Below, one piece after another: positions 2,536 to 20,254 of a DNA stretch of 20,254 nt (position 1 is the first letter of the stretch; each line of letters begins with the position of its first letter). Source of the stretch: a virus; IMG/VR virus record IMGVR_UViG_3300017818_001564, positions 1 to 20,254 of that record, one strand, 5' to 3'. The notes beneath the pieces were generated by a model that ran no database searches, was not told the origin of the DNA, and was given only the letters and a program-made list of their open reading frames with translations. The position numbers and the translations under genes were made by a program.

Positions 2536-3705
2536 ATGAAATCGTGTGAAGCAGAGGGGTGTAACATTGAGTTTACGCCTAACTCGTCTAACCAAAAGTA
2601 CGCACACTCTACTTGTCGTAAGAGTTTAGATAGTTTTGGTATTTGTAAATATCGTAAAGAGAATGGATTGGTTGATATGCCTGTAGATATTATGTCTGGT
2701 GACACTCCAGATTCAGATTCAGAGTTGCGTATGGCATATGCCAGATTGCAAAAAGAGTACGATAAAGTTAAGAACAAGAAAGATGATCTTGTTGATGCTG
2801 TGTATCGTGCAACTCTTGAACTTGATACAACTGTTAAAGCGCAAAAGGTGAAAGCCCCGCCTAAAGACAAAAGAAAGGGTAAGACTGAAGAAGTTGCAGT
2901 TGCTGTCATTGCAGACTGGCAGCTTGCTAAAGTTACGCCTGATTATAATTCTGAAGTTTGTGAACAGCGCATTGAGCAGTATGCTCAAAAAATTATTGAT
3001 CTTACAGAGATTCAGCGTGCTGATCATCCTGTCAAGAAACTGCATGTGTGGGCTTTGGGTGATATTGTTGAGGGAGAACTTATCTTTCCGGGTCAATCGT
3101 TTTTGATTGATGGTGGTTTGTATCGTCAGGTTACTGTAGATGGTCCTCGTATTATTAAGAATTTCTTGACAAAGATGCTTGAAAACTTTGATGAAGTTCA
3201 CTTTACTGGTGTTATTGGCAACCATGGCTCTATCGGTGGTAGGGCTAGGCGAGACCACGATCCAGAGACGAATGCTGACAGAATGCTATATCGTGTAGTA
3301 CAATGGATGTTTGAGAAGGAAAAACGCATAACTTTTGATATACCGGATGGTAGGGGTGAAAAGCACTGGTTTGCTGTCCCTGAAATTGGGAATTACAAGA
3401 GTTTGCTTTGTCACGGTGATCAATTCAATGGTTTATCTTCATTCTACTCGTTCCAGAAAAAGGTGTATGGGTGGAAAATTGGTGCCCTTGGGCAAGACTT
3501 TGATGATGTCTACCTTGGTCACTGGCACACTCCAACTAAGATGACGTTTAATACTATTCAGGTTAGAGTGTCAGGCAGTCCTGAATCTACAAACACTTAT
3601 GCTATGGAGAGTCTTGCTGCTATTGGGAGACCTTCACAGCCCTTGATGTTTGTTCACCCTGATAGGGGTATAGTTACAGCAGAATATAATGTCTGGCTGG
3701 ACTAA
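2536..3705 (+). CDS. Zinc-finger / coiled-coil / metallophosphoesterase fusion
   Basis: The product has 389 residues in three parts. Residues 1-30 hold a probable zinc-binding unit (Cys4, Cys9, His24, Cys27). Residues about 60-118 are charged and likely helical or coiled coil, ending in a Lys-rich linker. From about 120 comes a calcineurin-like phosphoesterase: motif I as ADWQ (Asp127, Gln129), motif II GD (175-176), motif III GNH (228-230), then HGD (293-295) and GHWH (328-331). Motif I normally reads D-x-H; D-x-Q is a variant I have seen in phage members, so activity is still plausible. The likely substrate is a phosphodiester, perhaps nucleic acid. GGAG at 2527-2530 is well placed for the ATG. 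The neighbours (HNH nuclease, holin-like protein) do not settle the role; DNA processing or a late function are both possible. Confidence 0.82.
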   Translation: MKSCEAEGCNIEFTPNSSNQKYAHSTCRKSLDSFGICKYRKENGLVDMPVDIMSGDTPDSDSELRMAYARLQKEYDKVKNKKDDLVDAVYRATLELDTTVKAQKVKAPPKDKRKGKTEEVAVAVIADWQLAKVTPDYNSEVCEQRIEQYAQKIIDLTEIQRADHPVKKLHVWALGDIVEGELIFPGQSFLIDGGLYRQVTVDGPRIIKNFLTKMLENFDEVHFTGVIGNHGSIGGRARRDHDPETNADRMLYRVVQWMFEKEKRITFDIPDGRGEKHWFAVPEIGNYKSLLCHGDQFNGLSSFYSFQKKVYGWKIGALGQDFDDVYLGHWHTPTKMTFNTIQVRVSGSPESTNTYAMESLAAIGRPSQPLMFVHPDRGIVTAEYNVWLD

Positions 3706-5099: not shown

Positions 5100-5343
5100 A
5101 CTTTTTATTCCTGATTCACCCCGAGAGGATCAGGTTGCTGATAGTCTTGCTAAGCATTATGATGGAGAACTACTGACAAAGGCGGTAGAGTGGTATATTG
5201 AAAACAGGCCGGGGCCATTTTTAGTTTTTGACTTTGCAATTGAGTCTAGAGACTTGGTTGAAAAGGTTAAATATGAAAGCGACGCTAAATCTCGCTTTCA
5301 AGATATCGTAGCCGAAACACGTAAGAGAATGGAAAATTCTTGA
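5035..5343 (+). CDS. Unknown small protein before the helicase; possible helicase loader
   Basis: The product has 102 residues, mostly helical by composition, with PDSPREDQVADSLAKHYDG and RPGPFLVFDFAIESRD as its most distinctive stretches. The start is ATG 5035 or 5038, inside the WhiB-like gene (65-base overlap), preceded by a weak AGGTGG. Its stop overlaps the TTG start of the DnaB-type helicase in a TTGA, so the two are very probably translationally coupled. Small proteins encoded directly before phage DnaB-type helicases are often loaders or loader-inhibitors such as G39P of SPP1. The general size fits, but I cannot show homology. The call as a real gene is firm; the loader role is a guess from position. 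Confidence 0.62.
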   Translation: MMKLTGESLINLFKTCSEKSHKLFIPDSPREDQVADSLAKHYDGELLTKAVEWYIENRPGPFLVFDFAIESRDLVEKVKYESDAKSRFQDIVAETRKRMENS

Positions 5344-6560
5344 ATTACGAAATTAAATTACTTAATTCGATTATTGAAACTAATGATTATGTAGATGCAG
5401 TCAACAGCGGTGTTGAAAATGTTTTTATTGAGTATAGAGATGTTTGGAACTTTGTTGTTTCTCATCATGATGATCACGGAAAAGTGCCTTCAAAGGACAC
5501 TGTGAAATCTCACTTCTCAGACTTTGAGTTTTTCAATACCCCTGAGCCGCTTGCGTACTATGTTGATGAAGCAAAGAAGGAATCGCTAGCGTTTCAGACC
5601 CGTCAAATTGTTGCTAAGGCTCACTCTCTTATTGGGGATGTTGGACCAAAGGATGCACTGTCATATTTGATGGAGCAAACTAGCAAACTGTATAAGTATT
5701 CCAGTTCTCTGAAAGATACTGATCTTGTATCCGAGTGGCGTGATAGGTATGATGACCTTAAAGAGCGGTCAGAGAATCCTGATAAGCACACTGTGGGTAT
5801 TCCTAGTGGTATTGATGTAATTGACAAAACGTTTGGTGGCTGGCAGGCCGGAGACTTCATTGTTTTGTTGGGTTGGACTGGTGTTGGTAAGTCATTCATT
5901 GCACGATTGTTTGCAGCTAATGCTTGGCGTGCTGGTTATCGACCAATGATTATTTCTCTTGAGATGAATAAGAAGCAAGAGGGTCAGAGGTTGGATACAC
6001 TCCTTAACAATGGTGAAGGTCACTTTACCAATACGGATTTGATTAAAGCGAATCCTGCTATTGTTGATGGTTATGAGTCTTGGGCTGAGGCTACATTTGG
6101 AGGAAAGCAACCTATTTATCTGATTACTTCAGAGGGGTTGGAGACTGCTGACCAAAATATGGTGCAGGCTAAGATTGACCAGTACCAGCCAGATATGGTT
6201 ATTCTTGACTATCACGGATTGTTTGATGATTCTACTGGCGCAAAGAACGAAACCGAAAAGGCTAAAAATCTATCAAAAGCTTTTAAGAGGATTGCTGTCA
6301 AAAATAATGTGCCTATTATTGATGTGGCGGCAGTGACTATGGCTGATGGTCATGGGGACAGACCACCTGAACTTGAAGAAGTTGCTTGGTCAAAACAGTT
6401 GGCATATGATGCTGACTTGGTTCTTGCTATTCATCGTGAGTTCAACTCTGATCTCTTCCAAGTAGTATCTAGGAAGGTTCGTAGAGCAACACACTTTGGG
6501 TTTTATCTAAGGTGGGATTTAGAAACAGGAAAGTGGGCAGAAGAGTGGGACGTAGGATGA
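5340..6560 (+). CDS. DnaB-type replicative DNA helicase
   Basis: The product has 406 residues. It has an N-terminal helical region (about 1-130) shorter than in bacterial DnaB, then a RecA-fold SF4 helicase core opening with GIPSGIDVIDKTFGGW. Walker A is GWTGVGKS (178-185); Walker B is VILDYHG (287-293); later comes the AWSKQLAYDADLVLAIHRE strand typical of DnaB/KaiC-like ATPases. It should form a hexamer that unwinds the fork ahead of the phage DnaE polymerase and recruit the primase encoded just downstream. The start is TTG in a TTGA overlap; there is no in-frame ATG nearby. The overlap chain loader-helicase-62-residue protein-primase indicates one operon. Domain assignment is certain. Confidence 0.93.
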   Translation: MNYEIKLLNSIIETNDYVDAVNSGVENVFIEYRDVWNFVVSHHDDHGKVPSKDTVKSHFSDFEFFNTPEPLAYYVDEAKKESLAFQTRQIVAKAHSLIGDVGPKDALSYLMEQTSKLYKYSSSLKDTDLVSEWRDRYDDLKERSENPDKHTVGIPSGIDVIDKTFGGWQAGDFIVLLGWTGVGKSFIARLFAANAWRAGYRPMIISLEMNKKQEGQRLDTLLNNGEGHFTNTDLIKANPAIVDGYESWAEATFGGKQPIYLITSEGLETADQNMVQAKIDQYQPDMVILDYHGLFDDSTGAKNETEKAKNLSKAFKRIAVKNNVPIIDVAAVTMADGHGDRPPELEEVAWSKQLAYDADLVLAIHREFNSDLFQVVSRKVRRATHFGFYLRWDLETGKWAEEWDVG

Positions 6561-6745
6561 GTGCTGAAAGCATATTTCACACATTGAGCGGTACTGCTGT
6601 TGATGTTGAAACCATTATCAGATTGCGTTCATGGATGGAAGATGAAGTCAAAAGAAAACAAGGTCAATTTAATTTTACTTCTTTAATCACTGATTACGAT
6701 AAAGAGACTGAGACATTTGAATTCAAACTTCACTTCCACAGGTAA
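6557..6745 (+). CDS. Small unknown protein between helicase and primase
   Basis: The product has 62 residues from the ATG at 6557, which overlaps the helicase stop as ATGA. The open frame reaches back to 6512, but an internal start coupled to the helicase stop is more likely. The sequence is helix then strand: VETIIRLRSWMEDEVKRKQG followed by a strand-turn-strand segment ending KLHFHR. There is no Cys and no membrane segment. Its 3' end overlaps the proposed TTG start of the primase by 29 bases. Location suggests a replisome accessory part, but nothing in the sequence shows a function. Confidence 0.6.
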   Translation: MSAESIFHTLSGTAVDVETIIRLRSWMEDEVKRKQGQFNFTSLITDYDKETETFEFKLHFHR

Positions 6746-7643
6746 TATTCAAAAAGCAGTAATGGAACTGCTGGACAGTCAGGGTGTAGAGGTACACACG
6801 CAGTCTGGCACTGAAGTTGCTATTTACTGTCCATTTCATGACAATACTCACAGCCCTGCTTGTTATATAAATACAAAAACAGGTCTGTGGCAATGTTTTA
6901 ATCCATCATGTGGCAAGAAGGGCAACTTTAGACAGTTGTACAAACACATGACTGGTAAAACATACGGTCGTGAGTGGATACTTGATCCAGTCAATCTTCA
7001 GAGAGAGTTGGATTTAGCTCTTGTGATAAAGGATACGGTAGAGGATTTATCTATTGATTCCATTGAAGTTGATTATAAAAGCGATGAAGTTCAAAACTTA
7101 CAAACACTTATAGATCGTGGTTACGATTTAGATATTCTTGAATATTTTGAAATAGGATACTCAAAAGTTAAAGATCGTGTTGTTATCCCTGTACGTGATC
7201 CTCATTATAAACTTGTGGGCTTGATTGGTCGTGCGGTGCATGACTGGCAGGAGCCACGATACCTATATAATAAAGGTTTCAAACGGGCGGATATTCTTTT
7301 TAACATACAAAATGCTAAACAATATGATAGCGTAATCATATGTGAAGGCAGTTTGGATGCTATAAAAGTAGCACAGTCTGGATTCAAAAATGTCGTAGCG
7401 ACTTTGGGTGCAAAGGTTTCTCCGAATCAGATCAAGATGATCAAAAAATATTTTGACACGATTGTCGTATTTTCAGACAATGATGACGCTGGAGCGGAGA
7501 TGAGGCGTGCTATAATTGAGGAATGTCGTGGCAAACAGATTTATACCGTTGCTATACCTGACGGTCTTAAAGATCCGGGCGACATGACAGACATACAAAT
7601 TAAGCAAGCCATTACAAGCAAACAAATTAATATAGGAGAATAA
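6717..7643 (+). CDS. DnaG-type DNA primase (zinc finger plus TOPRIM)
   Basis: The product has 308 residues, about half the length of bacterial DnaG. The zinc-binding unit is Cys38, His41, Cys60, Cys65 (CPFH ... CFNPSC), the CHC2 type that recognises template. A linker follows, then the RNA polymerase/TOPRIM part: VIICEGSLDAIK (Glu210) and FSDNDDAG (Asp254, Asp256), the metal-binding acidic residues. There is no helicase domain and no DnaG-like C-terminal helicase-binding bundle, so contact with the helicase must use another surface or partner. The listed start is TTG; the ATG at 6762 (residue 16) is a realistic alternative that would remove most of the overlap with the preceding gene. It synthesises RNA primers for the phage fork. 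Confidence 0.92.
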   Translation: MNSNFTSTGNIQKAVMELLDSQGVEVHTQSGTEVAIYCPFHDNTHSPACYINTKTGLWQCFNPSCGKKGNFRQLYKHMTGKTYGREWILDPVNLQRELDLALVIKDTVEDLSIDSIEVDYKSDEVQNLQTLIDRGYDLDILEYFEIGYSKVKDRVVIPVRDPHYKLVGLIGRAVHDWQEPRYLYNKGFKRADILFNIQNAKQYDSVIICEGSLDAIKVAQSGFKNVVATLGAKVSPNQIKMIKKYFDTIVVFSDNDDAGAEMRRAIIEECRGKQIYTVAIPDGLKDPGDMTDIQIKQAITSKQINIGE

Positions 7644-8361: not shown

Positions 8362-8889
8362 GTGGGTAAGACTATTTGTTTAGATCTTGATGGTGTTGTC
8401 ACCGACCTAGTTGGCGGAATAAATAGAGAACTAGATGTTCGTGGGATGTCTGGGTTTGATTATTCTGATTGGGTTATTACTCCGTTTGAGGATGATTTGA
8501 CTAGGGAGATTTTTGGTGATAGGTTGTTTTGGAGAAATTTGAAGCCTTTTGTTGATTCGTGGTATGCGGTTAATGATTGGTGGTCTAGTGGTCATGATGT
8601 GTTTTTTGTGACTGCTCGTTTTTCTGATGCGGCTATTCGTTCGGCTCGTCCTTGGTTGGATATGTGGGGTTTTCAGTATTCTGATTTGTTTTTTTGTGAT
8701 ATGGGCGATAAGTCTGGGCTGGTTGAGATGTTGAAGGCTGATGTGATGGTTGAGGATAATCCTAATGAGGTCAGGTTGTTGCGTGAGGCTGGTGTTGACG
8801 CTTTTCTGATGCGGGCTTGGTATAATTCTGAGTTTTGGGAGGATTTTCCTTCTATTGGTTCTTTGTTGGAGGTTGTTGTTGATGCGTAA
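8362..8889 (+). CDS. HAD-family 5'-(deoxy)nucleotidase
   Basis: The 175-residue product carries the four HAD motifs: DLDGVVTD near residue 8-15 (nucleophile Asp8 and acid/base Asp10), the FVTARF strand near residue 80 (motif II Thr), a Lys in the GDKSG segment near residue 116 (motif III), and VEDNP near residue 132 (motif IV acidic pair). Length and motif spacing fit the NT5C-type 5'(3')-deoxyribonucleotidases, which remove phosphate from nucleoside monophosphates. In a phage this could tune dNTP pools during replication or discard an unwanted nucleotide. The start is GTG with GGAAAGG upstream. From here the coding strand becomes strikingly G+T-rich, unlike the genes to the left, which suggests a separately acquired block. 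Confidence 0.8.
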   Translation: MGKTICLDLDGVVTDLVGGINRELDVRGMSGFDYSDWVITPFEDDLTREIFGDRLFWRNLKPFVDSWYAVNDWWSSGHDVFFVTARFSDAAIRSARPWLDMWGFQYSDLFFCDMGDKSGLVEMLKADVMVEDNPNEVRLLREAGVDAFLMRAWYNSEFWEDFPSIGSLLEVVVDA

Positions 8890-9002: not shown

Positions 9003-10274
9003 GTGAAGTTTGGTTCTTTGTTTGCTGGTGTCGGTGGTTTTGATCTTGGTTTTGAGGCTGCTGGTTTTGAGTGTGGGTGGCAGGTCGAGTGGGATAAGCA
9101 TTGCCAACAGGTGTTGCAGTTTCGCTGGCCGAATGTTCCTAAGTGGGAGGATGTGCGTGATGTGTCTGGCTATGATTTGGAGCCGGTTGATGTTATTACG
9201 TATGGGTTTCCGTGTCAGGATTTGAGTATTGCTGGTAAGCAGGCTGGTTTAGATGGCGATCGGTCTGGTTTATTTTTTGAAGCCATTCGTATTATTAAGG
9301 AGATGAGAGATGCAACAAATGGACGGTTCCCAAGGGTCGTTGTGGCCGAAAACGTCGTCGGACTCCTCAGTGCCGACAGAGGCGATGCAATGGGGAGATG
9401 CCTTGACTCGCTGGCCGAAGCAGGGGCGTTGGAGCAGGAGTGGTGTGTGTTGGACGCACAATGGTTTGGAGTTCCCCAGAGAAGAAGGCGCGTGTTCCTC
9501 GCATCTGTCTTCGATTCTTCAGTCGCCGGAAGATGTCCCCGAGAAATTTTCCCTGTCGCCCAAGGCGGCGGAGGGGATTCTGAGGAGGGCTTCGAGAAGG
9601 GGGAAGGAGTTGCCGGAGTTGTTGAGGATGGCTCTGGAGTCGCTGGTACGTTCAGAATGCTAGGGTTTGGTCATTACGCTGAAGATGATTCTGCTTCTGC
9701 TGTGAAGGCTAGAGACTATAAGAATGCTACTGATTTAATTGTGATGCCTATTCAGGGCAAGGCTATTGGTCGTGAGAATGATAGCAACACTCCTAATGGT
9801 AAAGGGTATGGCGATGATGGTGATCCGATGTTTACTTTGACTTCTTTTGATCGTCATGCTGTTGCTGTTGTTCCTTTTGTGAAGTCTCGTCGTGCGCAGA
9901 ATGTTGATGATTTTGAGACTTGGGTTGAGGGTGGTCCGGCTCCTACGTTGAATCAGTTTGATATGGGTGATGTTCGGTCTACTGTGGCTGTGTTGTCGTT
10001 TGATACGAAGTTTGGTTCTAATGCTGGTGTGTTTGATGGTGTTTCTCCTACTTTGAAGGCTTCGCAGGGTTCTCCTAGTTTGTGTGATAATGTTGGTGTT
10101 AGGAGGCTTACTCCTACTGAGTGTGAGCGTTTGATGGGCTGGCCTGATGCACATACGTTGTTGCGTGCTGATGGTAAGGAGAATTCTAATTCTCAGCGTT
10201 TTAAGATGTGTGGTAATGGTGTTGTTGCTCCTGTTGCTCAGTGGGTTGCTAGTCAGATTGCAAGGGTTTTGTGA
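9003..10274 (+). CDS. DNA cytosine-C5 methyltransferase
   Basis: The product has 423 residues with all core motifs in order: motif I SLFAGVGGFDLG (5-16), motif IV GFPCQDLS with catalytic Cys71, motif VI ENV (116-118), motif VIII QRRRR (159-163), and motifs IX/X at the end (RRLTPTECERLMGWPDAH and GNGVVAPVAQWVASQI). The recognition region between VIII and IX is large (about 165-375) and includes a Gly/Glu-rich low-complexity part (about 185-215). The enzyme methylates the C5 of cytosine, probably to protect phage DNA from host restriction; no partner endonuclease is nearby. The start is GTG. Codons 103-220 are shared with a +1-frame gene and use quite different codons from the rest. The stop overlaps the DnaE start as GTGATG. 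Confidence 0.94.
   Translation: MKFGSLFAGVGGFDLGFEAAGFECGWQVEWDKHCQQVLQFRWPNVPKWEDVRDVSGYDLEPVDVITYGFPCQDLSIAGKQAGLDGDRSGLFFEAIRIIKEMRDATNGRFPRVVVAENVVGLLSADRGDAMGRCLDSLAEAGALEQEWCVLDAQWFGVPQRRRRVFLASVFDSSVAGRCPREIFPVAQGGGGDSEEGFEKGEGVAGVVEDGSGVAGTFRMLGFGHYAEDDSASAVKARDYKNATDLIVMPIQGKAIGRENDSNTPNGKGYGDDGDPMFTLTSFDRHAVAVVPFVKSRRAQNVDDFETWVEGGPAPTLNQFDMGDVRSTVAVLSFDTKFGSNAGVFDGVSPTLKASQGSPSLCDNVGVRRLTPTECERLMGWPDAHTLLRADGKENSNSQRFKMCGNGVVAPVAQWVASQIARVL
9297..9302 (+). promoter_or_regulatory. Internal Shine-Dalgarno site for the nested gene
   Basis: AAGGAG sits inside the methyltransferase coding sequence, with exactly 7 bases before the ATG at 9310. It is one of the best ribosome binding sites in the window and the methyltransferase itself has no use for it. 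Confidence 0.6.
9310..9663 (+). CDS. Nested gene in the +1 frame of the cytosine methyltransferase
   Basis: The frame encodes 117 residues and is wholly contained in the methyltransferase gene. It has an ATG with AAGGAG 7 bases upstream. The product begins with a Gln/Ser/Trp-rich part (WPKQGRWSRSGVCWTHNG), then HLSSILQSPEDVPEKFSLSP, then a basic helical segment KAAEGILRRASRRGKELPEL. I recall similar segments (LSxxL, then F-LS-KA--GILRRA--RGK-LP) in uncharacterised phage and prophage proteins associated with cytosine methyltransferases, but could not check this. Codon choice in the methyltransferase frame shifts from T/G-ending to AGA, GTC, GGA and CTC codons exactly over this interval, and the methyltransferase is low-complexity where the nested frame looks most structured. 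Function is unknown; the basic helical end could bind nucleic acid. Confidence 0.68.
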   Translation: MQQMDGSQGSLWPKTSSDSSVPTEAMQWGDALTRWPKQGRWSRSGVCWTHNGLEFPREEGACSSHLSSILQSPEDVPEKFSLSPKAAEGILRRASRRGKELPELLRMALESLVRSEC

Positions 10275-13200
10275 TGACTGATTTTGTTCATTTGCATTGT
10301 CATAGTGAGTATTCGTTGTTGGATGGTATGTCTCGTCCTGAGGATATTGCTCGAATTGCGTCGTCTAATGGTCAGTTTGCGGCGGCTATTACTGATCATG
10401 GAACTATGGGTGGTGTCTTAAAGTTTCAGGATGCGTGTGATAAGTCTGGTGTTCGACCTTTGTTTGGTATTGAGGCTTATTTTGTTCCGTCGGTTGAGTC
10501 TGATTCTGATGCGAAGCATGAACGTTTCCATTTGATTCTTTTAGCGAAGAATAATCAGGGCTTGCAGAAGTTGTTTGAGGCTAATCGTGTTGGTTGGAAA
10601 GATAACTTTTATTACAAGCCTCGTATGGATTTTAATTTGTTGGAGGAACTTGTTGATGATGATGTGATTGCTTTGTCTGGTTGTATGGGTGGCGCAATCT
10701 CTAAGGCTATTGAGCGTGATGATTTTGCTGAAGCTGAGCGTTTGTCTGAGAGGTTTATCAATATTTTTGGTGACGATTTTTATTATGAGGTTCAGGCTTG
10801 GAATCCTACTAGGTTGAATGATAAGTTGATTGATTTAGCTTCGTCGTTTAATAAGAAGGTGGTTGCTACTGCTGATTGCCATTTTCCTACTGCTCATGAT
10901 GCTCATGATGAAGAGGTTCTGTTGATGGTTTCACAGTATCCGTCTTTGAATGCTGGTCAGGTTCGTCATGCTAAGGAGAATCTTGTTGGTGGTGGTAATG
11001 TTACTGACAAGATGAATCGTATGTATCCTGATCGTTTTCTTAGGTTTGATGAGATTAATCCTTATGTTGCACCTGCTGAAGAGGTTCTTAGTTGGTTTGC
11101 AGATAAAGGTTACAATGATGTATCTTACTTGGAAAATACGATAGAGGTTGCAGAGAAATGTTCTGCCAAAATTGAGAAGCGAAAAAATTTGCTTCCAAAG
11201 TACATGAAGGCTTTGGATTCAAATGATTATCTTCGTGAGTTATGTTTGATGGCTTTGTCGGATAAGTCGATTGATACTGAAGAGTATAGGAATCGTCTTG
11301 ATGAAGAACTTGCTGTTATTGCGAAGTTGGGCTTCTCAGACTATTTTTTGATGGTGTGGGATTTGGTTAAGTGGTGTGATCGTAATGATGTTGGTCGTGG
11401 AACTGGCCGTGGTTCTGTGGGTGGTAGTTTGATTGCTTATCTGCTTGATATTTCTAAGGTAAATCCTATTGAATATGGTTTGTTGTTTGCTCGTTTTTTG
11501 AATCCTGATCGTAATGATTATCCTGATATTGATTTGGACTTTGAGGATAAGCAACGTGATCGTGTGAAGGAGTATTTGGCTGAGCGTTGGGGTGAGGATA
11601 ATGTTGCGGCTATTGCGACGTATGGTGTGTTTAAACCTAAGTCTGTGATTAAAGATGTTGCTCGTGTGTTTCAGGTTCCTTTTGATGAGACTAATAGTGT
11701 GACTCCGTTTTTTGAGACGTTGGAGGAATTGCAGGCAACAGATAAGGGTAAGACGTTTATTAAGAAGTATCCTGATGTGTTGCCTATTGCTAAGAAGTTG
11801 GAAGGTCGTATTAGGAATACTGGTATTCATGCGGCTGGGATGGTGGTTTCTTCTGTCCCATTGACCGATATTTGCCCCGTAGAGACTCGTAAAGGCACTT
11901 CTGGCGATGGTAGGGCGGCTGTTACTTCTTTTGATATGGAGGACGCTGAAGCGGTTGGTTTGATCAAGGTTGATATTCTTGGTTTGAAGACTGTTTCGGT
12001 TATTAAGGATTGTATTGCCAAGATTAAGGAAATTCACGGTGTTGACGTTACTGATGCGTCGCTTATGTTGGATGATCCTGCTGTGTTCCAGAATTTTAAT
12101 GAGGGCAACACTGTGGGTGTGTTTCAGGCTGATGCAGCTGCTTACAGAAATCTTATTGATCGTATGGGTATTGATGATTTTAATGATCTGGTTGTTTCTA
12201 ATGCGCTAGTTCGCCCAGGTGCTCTGCTTTCTCAGGGTCAGACGTATATTGATTGTAAGAAAGGCGAGGCTGCCGCTAAGTATCCCCATGAGATTGTGAA
12301 ACCTATTTTGGAAGAGACTTACGGTACTGTTATCTTTCAGGAACAGTTGATGCAGATGGCTGTGTTGCTTGCTGGCTTTACTTGGTCTGAGGCTGACAAG
12401 CTTCGTAAGATTATTGGTAAGAAGCGTGATGCGGCTGGGTTTGATGAATACAAGGAGAAGTTCTGTAGTAACGAGTATTTGACTCGTAAGCAGTCTGAAA
12501 AAATTTGGGCTGACTTTGAACTTGCGGCTTTGTATATGTTTAACAAGTCGCACGCTGTTGCGTATTCTATGTTGTCCTATCAGACTATGTGGTTAAAGAT
12601 TAATTACCCTAAAGAGTTCGTGTGGTCTATGCTATACAATGAGTCTGAAAAGGGTAAAATTACTGCTTATTTGATGGAGGCTACTCGTCTTGGTATTAAG
12701 ATTCTTCCTCCTGATGTGAATACGTCGGATGAGTATTTTACGATTGATTCTGAGGGTATTCGTTTTGGTTTGAGAAATGTTGCTGGTTGTGGTAATAGTG
12801 CTATTGATGAGATTGTTAAGCATCGACCTTACAATTCTTACGACGAGTTTATGAATAAGTGTTCTAAGCGTCATGTGAAGGCTCCGCTTCGAGAGAGTTT
12901 GGAGAAGGTTGGTTCGTTTGTTTCTCTGGGTCATAATTCTGGTTATGATCATGAGCGTTACTATCTTCCGATTCTAGGGTTTGCGGCTGGTCTTGCTGAT
13001 AGTGATAATGAGATGGATGAACTTGTGGAGCCTATTGAGGGGTTCCATGAAATCTATTCAGAGTTGCGAATGATTAAGGGTGTGGTTCGGTCTACTAAGA
13101 AAACACCGAAGTATCTTCGTGTTGAGATTGAGGACCAGTCTTCTTCTGTCAGTGTGTTTTGTGATCGTAATGCTGAGATTGCTAATCGTGATTTTATGTA

Positions 13201-16190: not shown

Positions 16191-16503
16191 TTTTTATATT
16201 GAAGTAGATACCATTAAAGAGATGATGGGCGATCATGCTGAAGAATTTATTGAGTGCATGAAGATTGTACAAGACATTATCCAGCGACCAGATCACTATG
16301 TGGGCGGTCAGGCAATTAGGTATGCTAATCAGCTCGCTGGTTATCGAACCATGATGATTGTAAAGTCACAAATGTTTAAGCGCAAGTCTCAGTTGATGGA
16401 CAATGAAGATAAGTTTGTCAATGACATCTGGAAGACTATGTACGAGGCTCTCAGTGAGAATATTAATGTTCTTAAATTATCAGCAAGGAATGGAACACAA
16501 TGA
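16183..16503 (+). CDS. Helical protein before the Cas4-like nuclease, unknown
   Basis: The product has 106 residues, nearly all predicted helix by composition, with recurrent Met, Lys and Asn. Notable stretches are AIRYANQLAGYRTMMIVKSQ and WKTMYEALSENINVLKLSAR. The start is TTG with AGGAAAG upstream; the next start overlaps its stop as ATGA, so it is coupled to the Cas4-like nuclease. A small all-helical partner next to RecA and a recombination nuclease might be a mediator like T4 UvsY, but that rests on position and general shape only. Confidence 0.6.
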   Translation: MSNFYIEVDTIKEMMGDHAEEFIECMKIVQDIIQRPDHYVGGQAIRYANQLAGYRTMMIVKSQMFKRKSQLMDNEDKFVNDIWKTMYEALSENINVLKLSARNGTQ

Positions 16504-17267
16504 AATCATTAAGAGCACTTAAGGTGGAGCCGCAAGAGAAAAAAGCGGTTGTCGAAAGCGAACCTATCAGTGGTTCTCAGTTAGAAGGTATGCTTTGTGA
16601 AGCGGTGGATATTCATATCGGTAAGCGTAATGAGCCTATCTATAAGAAGGTCGATTACTTTAGACCAAGTTCCACTAATCAATGCGCTAGATATTGGTAT
16701 TATATGTTTGAGGGTGTGACCTATACGCCCACGTTCTCTGCCCAAACTTATCGCATTTTTGATAACGGTCACGCCGTTCACGACAGGCTGTACTCTTACT
16801 TTAGAGAGATGGGCATCCTTGTTGCAGAAGAATTGCCGGTCAGTAACGATGATCCACCAATTCAGGGCACTGCTGATGGTATAATTGATTTAGATGGACA
16901 TAAACTTATTGAGTTAAAGTCAATCTCGACTGAAGGCTTCCAGTATAGGCAACTTTCACATAAACCTTCTGACGATCACGTTAGACAGGCTAATCTATAT
17001 ATGCATTGTTTAGGTTTAGATAGTGGTTTTGTTATTTATGAAAACAAGAATAATCAACAAATTTTACCTATTTATATAGAGCGAGACGACGTTTTTCTTG
17101 ATAAACTATTTAAGAAGTATCGTAAAATATATAAGGCCGTACAAGACCAAGAAAAGCCTAAGCGACCGTATAAGAATACTTCGAAGCACTGTGCTAGATG
17201 TGATTTAGCTCCAATGTGCTGGGCGGAGAATGATGTAGATGATAAGCAGGAGTACGAGCCATTTTGA
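16500..17267 (+). CDS. Cas4/RecB-like exonuclease with Fe-S cluster
   Basis: The product has 255 residues. The PD-(D/E)XK core is complete: His91/His94 in NGHAVHD, Asp126 in GTADGIIDL, Glu138-x-Lys140 in ELKSI and Gln163 in VRQANLY. Four Cys (Cys62 in NQCARYWYY, and Cys231, Cys234, Cys240 in CARC-x5-C) have the split arrangement that binds a 4Fe-4S cluster in Cas4 and AddB-type nucleases. The enzyme should resect or cut single-strand ends for recombination with the nearby RecA-like protein. No CRISPR array or other cas gene is present, so this is the phage recombination type rather than part of an adaptation module. ATG overlaps the previous stop as ATGA, with AAGGAA upstream. Confidence 0.88.
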   Translation: MKSLRALKVEPQEKKAVVESEPISGSQLEGMLCEAVDIHIGKRNEPIYKKVDYFRPSSTNQCARYWYYMFEGVTYTPTFSAQTYRIFDNGHAVHDRLYSYFREMGILVAEELPVSNDDPPIQGTADGIIDLDGHKLIELKSISTEGFQYRQLSHKPSDDHVRQANLYMHCLGLDSGFVIYENKNNQQILPIYIERDDVFLDKLFKKYRKIYKAVQDQEKPKRPYKNTSKHCARCDLAPMCWAENDVDDKQEYEPF

Positions 17268-19255: not shown

Positions 19256-19381
19256 ATGGAAATTAAACGTGTTGAAGAGTCTTTTGAAAAGATTTCTGAA
19301 ATAGGTAAATATACTTTGTACAAAGTGAATAATGATGAAGAACAAGATATTCTGGAGAGCGCTCTCGAAGAGCAAAGCTGA
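19256..19381 (+). CDS. 41-residue acidic ORF upstream of the glycosyltransferase
   Basis: ATG 19256 is preceded by a purine-rich GAGGGGAGGG and opens 41 codons to TGA at 19379-19381. The peptide is acidic and amphipathic (MEIKRVEESFEKISEIGKYT, then DEEQDILESALEEQ) with no known motif. It overlaps the glycosyltransferase start by 50 bases in a different frame. Either it is a real small protein or it serves to bring ribosomes to the glycosyltransferase start, which lacks a ribosome binding site of its own. Confidence 0.5.
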   Translation: MEIKRVEESFEKISEIGKYTLYKVNNDEEQDILESALEEQS

Positions 19382-20254
19382 CGGGTACGGTTACGCATCA
19401 TATAGAATTTCCTCTGGTCTCAAGGAAGCCGGTCTGCCTTTACTTGAGACAGAGGATTTTTTACATTCAAAAGTACAATCTAATGTTACTAGTATCGGTC
19501 TTGATCCCGACAAAGGCTTTCTGTTTATTCCTGATTTAGAAAATGTTGATATTTATATAAATAACTGCTTGCCGCAAGATTTTACGTTTGGTGAGTCTTA
19601 TAATGTAGGCTTTTCTTACTGGGAGACTACAAAGATGCCTAGCAATTGGGTTCCTATGTTGAATAGATGTGATGAGGTTTGGACTACTTCAAAATGGGCT
19701 GGTGATGTTTTTAAGGAAAACACTGGGCATGAGAATGTTCACTCTTTTAAGTTAGGGATTGAATCAGATTTGTTTTGGTCAAACTCTTGGATTCCTGAGC
19801 CTTTTACTTTTCTTCATGTTGGTAGTCCGTCAACTAGGAAGAACACTCAGATGGCTGTAGACGCTTTTATAAAGACATATGGGCACAGGAAGGACTTTAG
19901 GCTGATTGTGAAGTCTATTGGGCCTCCTGACGCTCGTATAAGGGATTCTGGGATGAATCATGGTGCGATTACGAATCACGACAGGATTCAGGTTATTGAT
20001 TGGGAGTTATCTGAGCCTGATCTTGCTGATTTGTACAGGTCTGCCCACTGTCTGCTGTATCCCACTATGGGTGAAGGTTGGGGAATGATCCCTTTCAATG
20101 CTATTGCTTGTGGTACACCCACAATTTGCACTAACGCTACTGCTTGCACAGAATACGCTGAACTGTCAGTGCCATTGGACTTTGAATGGTCTAAAGAAGG
20201 AACTACTGGTATTTATAATACTGGAGGTAAGTGGGCAAAGCCTAGTATTGATGA
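19332..20254 (+). CDS. GT-B fold glycosyltransferase (3' partial)
   Basis: The frame is open from ATG 19332 to the right edge (307 complete codons). A stop at 19326-19328 fixes the start at or after 19332 (or the adjacent ATG 19335). The N-terminal part has FWRALSKSKADGYGYASYRI, the donor/acceptor loop style of GT4-like enzymes. It continues with GFSYWETTKMPSNWV and CDEVWTTSKWAGDVF, then the C-terminal nucleotide-sugar domain: FLHVGSPSTRKN (start of the second Rossmann half), RLIVKS, and LYPTMGEGWGMIPFNAIACG with the EGWG-x7-E-like loop (here the usual Glu is Asn). It should transfer a sugar from a nucleotide donor to a glycan, protein or modified base. There is no ribosome binding site; translation probably depends on the overlapping 41-residue ORF. 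Confidence 0.85.
   Translation, partial: MMKNKIFWRALSKSKADGYGYASYRISSGLKEAGLPLLETEDFLHSKVQSNVTSIGLDPDKGFLFIPDLENVDIYINNCLPQDFTFGESYNVGFSYWETTKMPSNWVPMLNRCDEVWTTSKWAGDVFKENTGHENVHSFKLGIESDLFWSNSWIPEPFTFLHVGSPSTRKNTQMAVDAFIKTYGHRKDFRLIVKSIGPPDARIRDSGMNHGAITNHDRIQVIDWELSEPDLADLYRSAHCLLYPTMGEGWGMIPFNAIACGTPTICTNATACTEYAELSVPLDFEWSKEGTTGIYNTGGKWAKPSID

Follow-up and report, generated by a model that had tools for sequence, protein, structure and literature searches.

An apparent overlapping gene in the +1 frame of a clade of phage cytosine-5 methyltransferases, and its possible role as a second subunit

An open reading frame lying in the +1 frame of a phage DNA (cytosine-5) methyltransferase gene is very likely a genuine overlapping gene, its translation being inferred in the absence of expression data. 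On balance we favour the view that its product is a small second (beta-like) subunit of the methyltransferase, a reading that is itself inferred, there being no data on contact between the two proteins, on requirement for activity or on expression.

The nested frame in its host gene

The window (the whole stretch of DNA analysed, 20,254 nucleotides of a virus record) carries a methyltransferase gene, hereafter alpha, that is unbroken and unsplit; motifs I, IV, VI, VIII, IX and X share a single reading frame. The features are these, the alpha motifs having been read in the sequence:

9003..10274, + strand: DNA (cytosine-5) methyltransferase (alpha), 423 aa, GTG start; Pfam PF00145 E 1.2e-59, phrog_116 E 2.6e-85
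9210-9218, + strand: alpha motif IV, PCQ
9297..9302, + strand: Shine-Dalgarno AAGGAG, 7-nt spacer to the nested ATG at 9310
9310..9663, + strand: nested +1-frame gene, 117 codons (117 aa), wholly inside alpha (9003-10274)
9348-9356, + strand: alpha motif VI, ENV
9427..9564, + strand: nested residues 40-85, homologous in profile comparisons to an in-frame m5C methyltransferase module between motifs VIII and IX
9477-9491, + strand: alpha motif VIII, QRRRR
9559..9657, + strand: nested residues 84-116, helical hairpin LSPKAAEGILRRASRRGKELPELLRMALESL, the family's most conserved part
10101-10145, + strand: alpha motif IX, RRLTPTECERLMGWP
10197-10232, + strand: alpha motif X, RFKMCGNGVVAP

The nested gene has a possible alternative start at a further in-frame ATG, 9319. 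The first half of the nested interval covers alpha motifs VI and VIII, and the second half a Gly/Glu-rich part of alpha. Outside the nested ORF 92% of alpha codons end in T or G, versus 45% inside, a value below that of every 118-codon block in the ten other window genes compared (mean 74%, lowest block 53%). A preliminary description, made from the sequence alone, had reported the 117-codon frame with its AAGGAG-7-ATG start, a codon switch coinciding with it, and this division of alpha into motifs and Gly/Glu-rich sequence; all three observations held.

An NT5C-like nucleotidase gene lies immediately 5' of alpha, and the window genes around it include the end of a tail-fibre S74 chaperone, an HNH_3 gene, a DnaB-like helicase and primase, a Cas4-like exonuclease and a glycosyltransferase (neighbour ORFs noted at 2-1084, 2048-2467, 5340-7643, 8362-8889, 16500-17267 and 19332-20252). 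Long antisense ORFs are also present (9735-10154, 11336-12037 and 2719-3258, all on the minus strand). These are probably open merely through the T/G-ending codons of the phage, and their presence means that ORF length alone is little evidence here. For the nested ORF itself, 676 of 2000 synonymous codon permutations of alpha leave the frame open, so its length is likewise not evidence; openness of the +1 frame as proof of a gene was dropped, since it is expected by chance in 34% of cases.

Distribution and selection

Against a family profile built from relatives, with the window left out, the nested frame scores 125.9 bits, whereas 2000 synonymous shuffles give a mean of 20.4 and a maximum of 63.3. 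Among methyltransferases of more than 250 residues that were picked by their C-terminus only, without regard to the nested frame (n=76), the real +1 score exceeded all 50 synonymous shuffles in 76/76. Seeming internal stops in 30 of these cases, inspected singly, lay either upstream of the internal start or where the frame naturally ends; no stop was found within the nested core in the cases inspected by reading, nor was any homologue seen with an intact alpha but a broken nested core.

A tblastn search with the nested product gave matches in 128 phage records, and pattern scans located relatives in at least 590 viral contigs and at least 522 bacterial or archaeal genome contigs, both figures being lower bounds. 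At all 170 loci examined (10/10 phage records, 80/80 viral contigs and 80/80 genome contigs), which span many phyla, the relative occupies the +1 frame of a methyltransferase ORF. These loci were picked by nested-protein similarity and are partly redundant, and 7 of the 80 genome loci were accepted as methyltransferases by eye, the strict motif test having missed them. We found no nested ORF apart from a methyltransferase gene, the linkage with alpha being one to one. When 24 genomes were searched with PF00145 and 30 loci fetched, the nested frame was present in all those with a clade-profile score above 270 bits; loci scoring below 175 bits lacked it, save for one 43-residue marginal match. 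The nested frame is thus bimodal among m5C methyltransferases, which points to a property of one clade rather than a general shadow of the enzyme.

The dmt gene of phage P1 likewise has a nested +1 gene. The P1-dmt stretch is present in 493 of 5426 E. coli genomes, the annotation inspected naming the methyltransferase only, and the nested gene is almost never annotated. The preliminary description had suggested that the family may be widespread but unnamed, pointing to similar segments in other phage proteins close to enzymes of this kind. The family is widespread, and the segments in question are the +1 frame of the enzymes themselves; 'unnamed' held only in part, one member, from Streptococcus phage MM1, having been deposited as a beta subunit.

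An overlapping gene may be recognised by lower synonymous variation in the host gene across the nested interval, by conservation of the nested protein beyond host-frame demands, and by translation signals of its own, and all three criteria are met. On the first, identity at fourfold third positions among 68 homologues is 0.59 inside the nested interval versus 0.28 outside, and fourfold pairwise divergence, in pairs 60-92% identical, is 0.275 inside versus 0.529 outside. On the second, we compared frames over the GILRR region (25 codons, -9 to +15 around GILRR) in 116 loci at <70% identity, where the nested frame has an amino acid identity of 0.66, alpha 0.34 and the third frame 0.30. Base identity there at alpha positions 1, 2 and 3 is 0.42, 0.68 and 0.73; the most conserved bases are alpha third positions, which are nested second positions, and first positions are the least conserved. 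In the set chosen without the nested frame, core amino acid identity is 0.60 (nested), 0.28 (alpha) and 0.25 (third frame). Identity in the nested core is thus about twice that of alpha, which suggests that selection there acts mainly on the nested protein. The N-terminal half is poorly conserved and under weaker constraint, and among P1 alleles most differences in this half alter the nested protein yet are silent in alpha. Both dual coding and the passing of constraint from one frame to the other, as originally proposed, are therefore upheld; homologues broken throughout the +1 frame, or undiminished synonymous variation, would have told against them, and the frame proved intact and the variation reduced.

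On the third criterion, a Shine-Dalgarno match of at least 5 nt is found at 35% of nested starts versus 6% of control ATGs (odds ratio 9.2, p 8e-13). The start methionine is conserved, and the first start codon typically lies a few codons past an upstream in-frame stop (commonest 7, 1 and 4). These nearby stops, together with the Shine-Dalgarno enrichment, make independent internal initiation likelier than frameshifting. It is likely that the nested gene is started from its own Shine-Dalgarno within the methyltransferase message, though translation is again inferred, without expression data.

P1-like dmt alleles (loci L001 and L400-L403) differ by a swap of alpha's downstream region past the nested GILRRAE codons. 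In the swap seen in P1-like plasmids, the junction is within the GILRRAE codons and the incoming sequence encodes a similar nested C-terminus (RGRKLPDILQTSLSDL).

Module homology and comparison with known systems

The module to which residues 40-85 are homologous has the pattern SGM..G..T...L.dIL..V..kyyLS. Compared with it directly, window-type profiles give 65-84% (shuffled controls ≤1.1%), whereas MM1-type members give 96.7% (hhalign, E 3e-10); MM1-type and window-type profiles match one another at 99.7% (hhalign). The strong link to the module thus goes via the MM1-type members, the direct window-type comparison being modest, and it should be borne in mind that profile-pair E-values are for one comparison and that the module has only ~50 residues. 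The in-frame module is absent from 281/281 methyltransferase ORFs in loci with a nested gene; the 20 methyltransferase ORFs that do have it were mostly fetched by module search, so only the zero is informative. A scan of viral sequences with the in-frame module gave no relatives.

The AlphaFold2 model reaches pLDDT >90 in the hairpin only, the rest being mostly of low confidence. Foldseek with the hairpin gave no significant fold match, a PDB sequence search with the nested profile gave no match, and the nested product itself matched nothing in Pfam, NCBIfam or PADLOC. Among 5027 PADLOC models, family members match only two, both type II methyltransferase models, and these weakly.

In Streptococcus phage MM1 (DQ113772), orf13 and orf14 were deposited as 'C5 methyltransferase alpha / beta subunit'. 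As in the window, orf14 (141 aa) is led by a Shine-Dalgarno and lies in the +1 frame inside orf13, which keeps its motifs, IX and X included, and orf14 matches the nested profile with E 2e-31 over ~115 residues. If membership of the MM1-beta family is defined by profile homology over most of the protein and a +1 position in an all-motif m5C methyltransferase, the window gene qualifies. It differs in that the MM1 alpha is of the PQNRER kind and its beta lacks the GILRR hairpin. A functional test of MM1 beta was not found in the open-access literature searched, the original MM1 paper being outside it. More generally, MM1-type nested members (loci L193, L197, L209, L214, L221, L228, L236, L246, L304-L311 and L397) sit in PQNRER-type methyltransferases and, without the hairpin, keep a SLSDILE..V..KYFLS segment; MM1 beta has matches in 216 phage records, mainly from Streptococcus.

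M.EcoHK31I (YGGCCR) is a two-polypeptide m5C methyltransferase; according to the title of Lee et al. 1995 (cited in PMC3404938) it requires both polypeptides in vitro, and its small subunit carries motif IX (PMC3404938). The second polypeptide of this enzyme is read from a different frame inside the alpha gene. The window differs in that alpha has RRLTPTECERLMGWP in frame and the nested product lacks motif IX. The membership test on motif IX thus failed, and at most the nested product may work like the M.EcoHK31I small subunit, an analogy drawn without comparison of beta sequences.

M.AquI (CYCGRG) is naturally split after motif VIII (PMC3404938), and is not described there as nested. It differs from the window, where alpha is unsplit, but resembles the arrangement in a Pseudomonas abyssi prophage (L275 1667-2947, the same as L171). 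Here the nested ORF extends 426 codons in frame into motifs IX-X, the motif I-VIII frame (alpha) ends after VIII, and the nested protein is thereby fused to the enzyme's C-terminal half; this is a single prophage, met twice. Alpha is split after motif VIII also in L266, L272 and L002.

The phrog_1008 family (labelled 'DNA methyltransferase'; L315-L394, L282 and L283) is likewise +1-nested in methyltransferase-like ORFs, these being of another class, at 78 of 80 loci, in a layout resembling M.EcoHK31I. Its proteins are longer, have a motif-IX-like LNPAHSRWLMGLPPEW end and show no profile homology to the window product. Homology between the two had been suspected from hmmscan (weak matches from 6 of 24 members, best E 1e-4), and was unsupported by hhalign (~1%). 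In Xanthomonas phage PhiXhv-18 (L396 1371-2363 / 1453-2358) both frames are annotated as DNA methyltransferase.

The ShiLan domain (PMC11855218), an HNH endonuclease encoded out of frame within a phage methylase, is similarly a hidden gene in such an enzyme. It is a homing insertion with an HNH fold, whereas the window frame is uninserted and overlaps core motifs VI-VIII, and no HNH domain was detected in the nested product with Pfam, NCBIfam or PADLOC.

Both the notion of two subunits and a single nested 'beta' have therefore been on record since MM1, and M.EcoHK31I is also a precedent. In the open-access literature searched we found nothing on the extent of the family, its module, the reversal of selection or the member in P1 dmt; within that literature, what is new is the breadth, the layout and the near-absence from annotation.

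Function of the nested product

Under the subunit reading, alpha carries all the catalytic motifs, and the nested protein would supply a VIII-IX module in trans, plus a helical hairpin, and may help assembly, DNA binding or target recognition. We favour it because of the MM1 depositors' beta naming together with the profile match of MM1 beta; because residues 40-85 are homologous to an in-frame methyltransferase module that is missing from alphas with a nested gene; and because the gene is never apart from the enzyme and is fused to motifs IX-X in one Pseudomonas prophage. Of the functions originally suggested (assisting, inhibiting, or being toxic without the enzyme), 'assist' fits best, again by inference. 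The sequence, its conservation, the internal start signals, the obligate linkage to a methyltransferase clade and the module homology are shown; translation, physical contact with alpha and need for activity are inferred. Several points count against a subunit: with every catalytic motif present, alpha has no obvious need of a partner; the nested N-terminal half is variable; AlphaFold is confident in the hairpin only, with no fold match; the direct module match is modest; the fusion comes from a single prophage; and there are no expression data.

A bolder reading, which we consider possible but would not yet back, is that many phage cytosine methyltransferases, P1 Dmt included, are two-component enzymes. 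The second subunit would be encoded out of frame over motifs VI-VIII and carry the displaced VIII-IX module, not motif IX, and its C-terminus and the variable region of alpha would be exchanged together, as the P1 swap at the GILRRAE junction illustrates.

Among the alternatives, the one that survives best, though it is unlikely, is a real gene whose product acts apart from methylation (in anti-restriction, host takeover or regulation) and merely shares alpha's DNA. The complete motif set of alpha, the variable nested N-terminus and the mostly low-confidence AlphaFold model are compatible with this. Against it stand the absence of the nested gene outside methyltransferase genes, the homology to a methyltransferase module and the MM1 depositors' 'beta subunit' name.

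Ribosomal +1 frameshifting, yielding a shortened form of alpha that ends in the nested C-terminus, is very unlikely. A fused isoform is conceivable in that the module follows motif VIII in frame in other enzymes. However, in-frame stops lie close upstream of the start (commonly 1-7 codons), the start methionine is conserved and Shine-Dalgarno matches are enriched, and a product of such a shift would be without motif VIII or motifs IX-X.

We give equally little credence to an inhibitor or toxin-like regulator restraining the methyltransferase. Strict one-to-one linkage with alpha would fit this too, but homology to the enzymes' own module suggests a working part, and no PADLOC defence model besides methyltransferases was matched.

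That there is no gene, the +1 similarity merely reflecting conservation of the methyltransferase, codon bias or an RNA element, is all but excluded: the window frame is open in 34% of shuffles, and shuffles score above zero because alpha is conserved, but all 76 unbiased cases beat their own shuffles, the nested core is about twice as conserved as alpha, non-clade methyltransferases lack the frame, and an RNA element would not yield codon-periodic +1 constraint.

Few long same-strand overlaps between genes are conserved from one bacterial phylum to another, and claims of them often meet with doubt. Here, the nested gene is superimposed on catalytic motifs of a textbook enzyme and, for part of its length, is the frame with the higher conservation. 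Phage P1 and hundreds of phages and prophages thus gain a protein that is missing from their annotation. If the product is indeed a beta-like subunit, then wherever phage cytosine methyltransferases have been cloned from alpha alone, or recoded for synthesis, the partner may have been missing or destroyed when the enzyme was tested.
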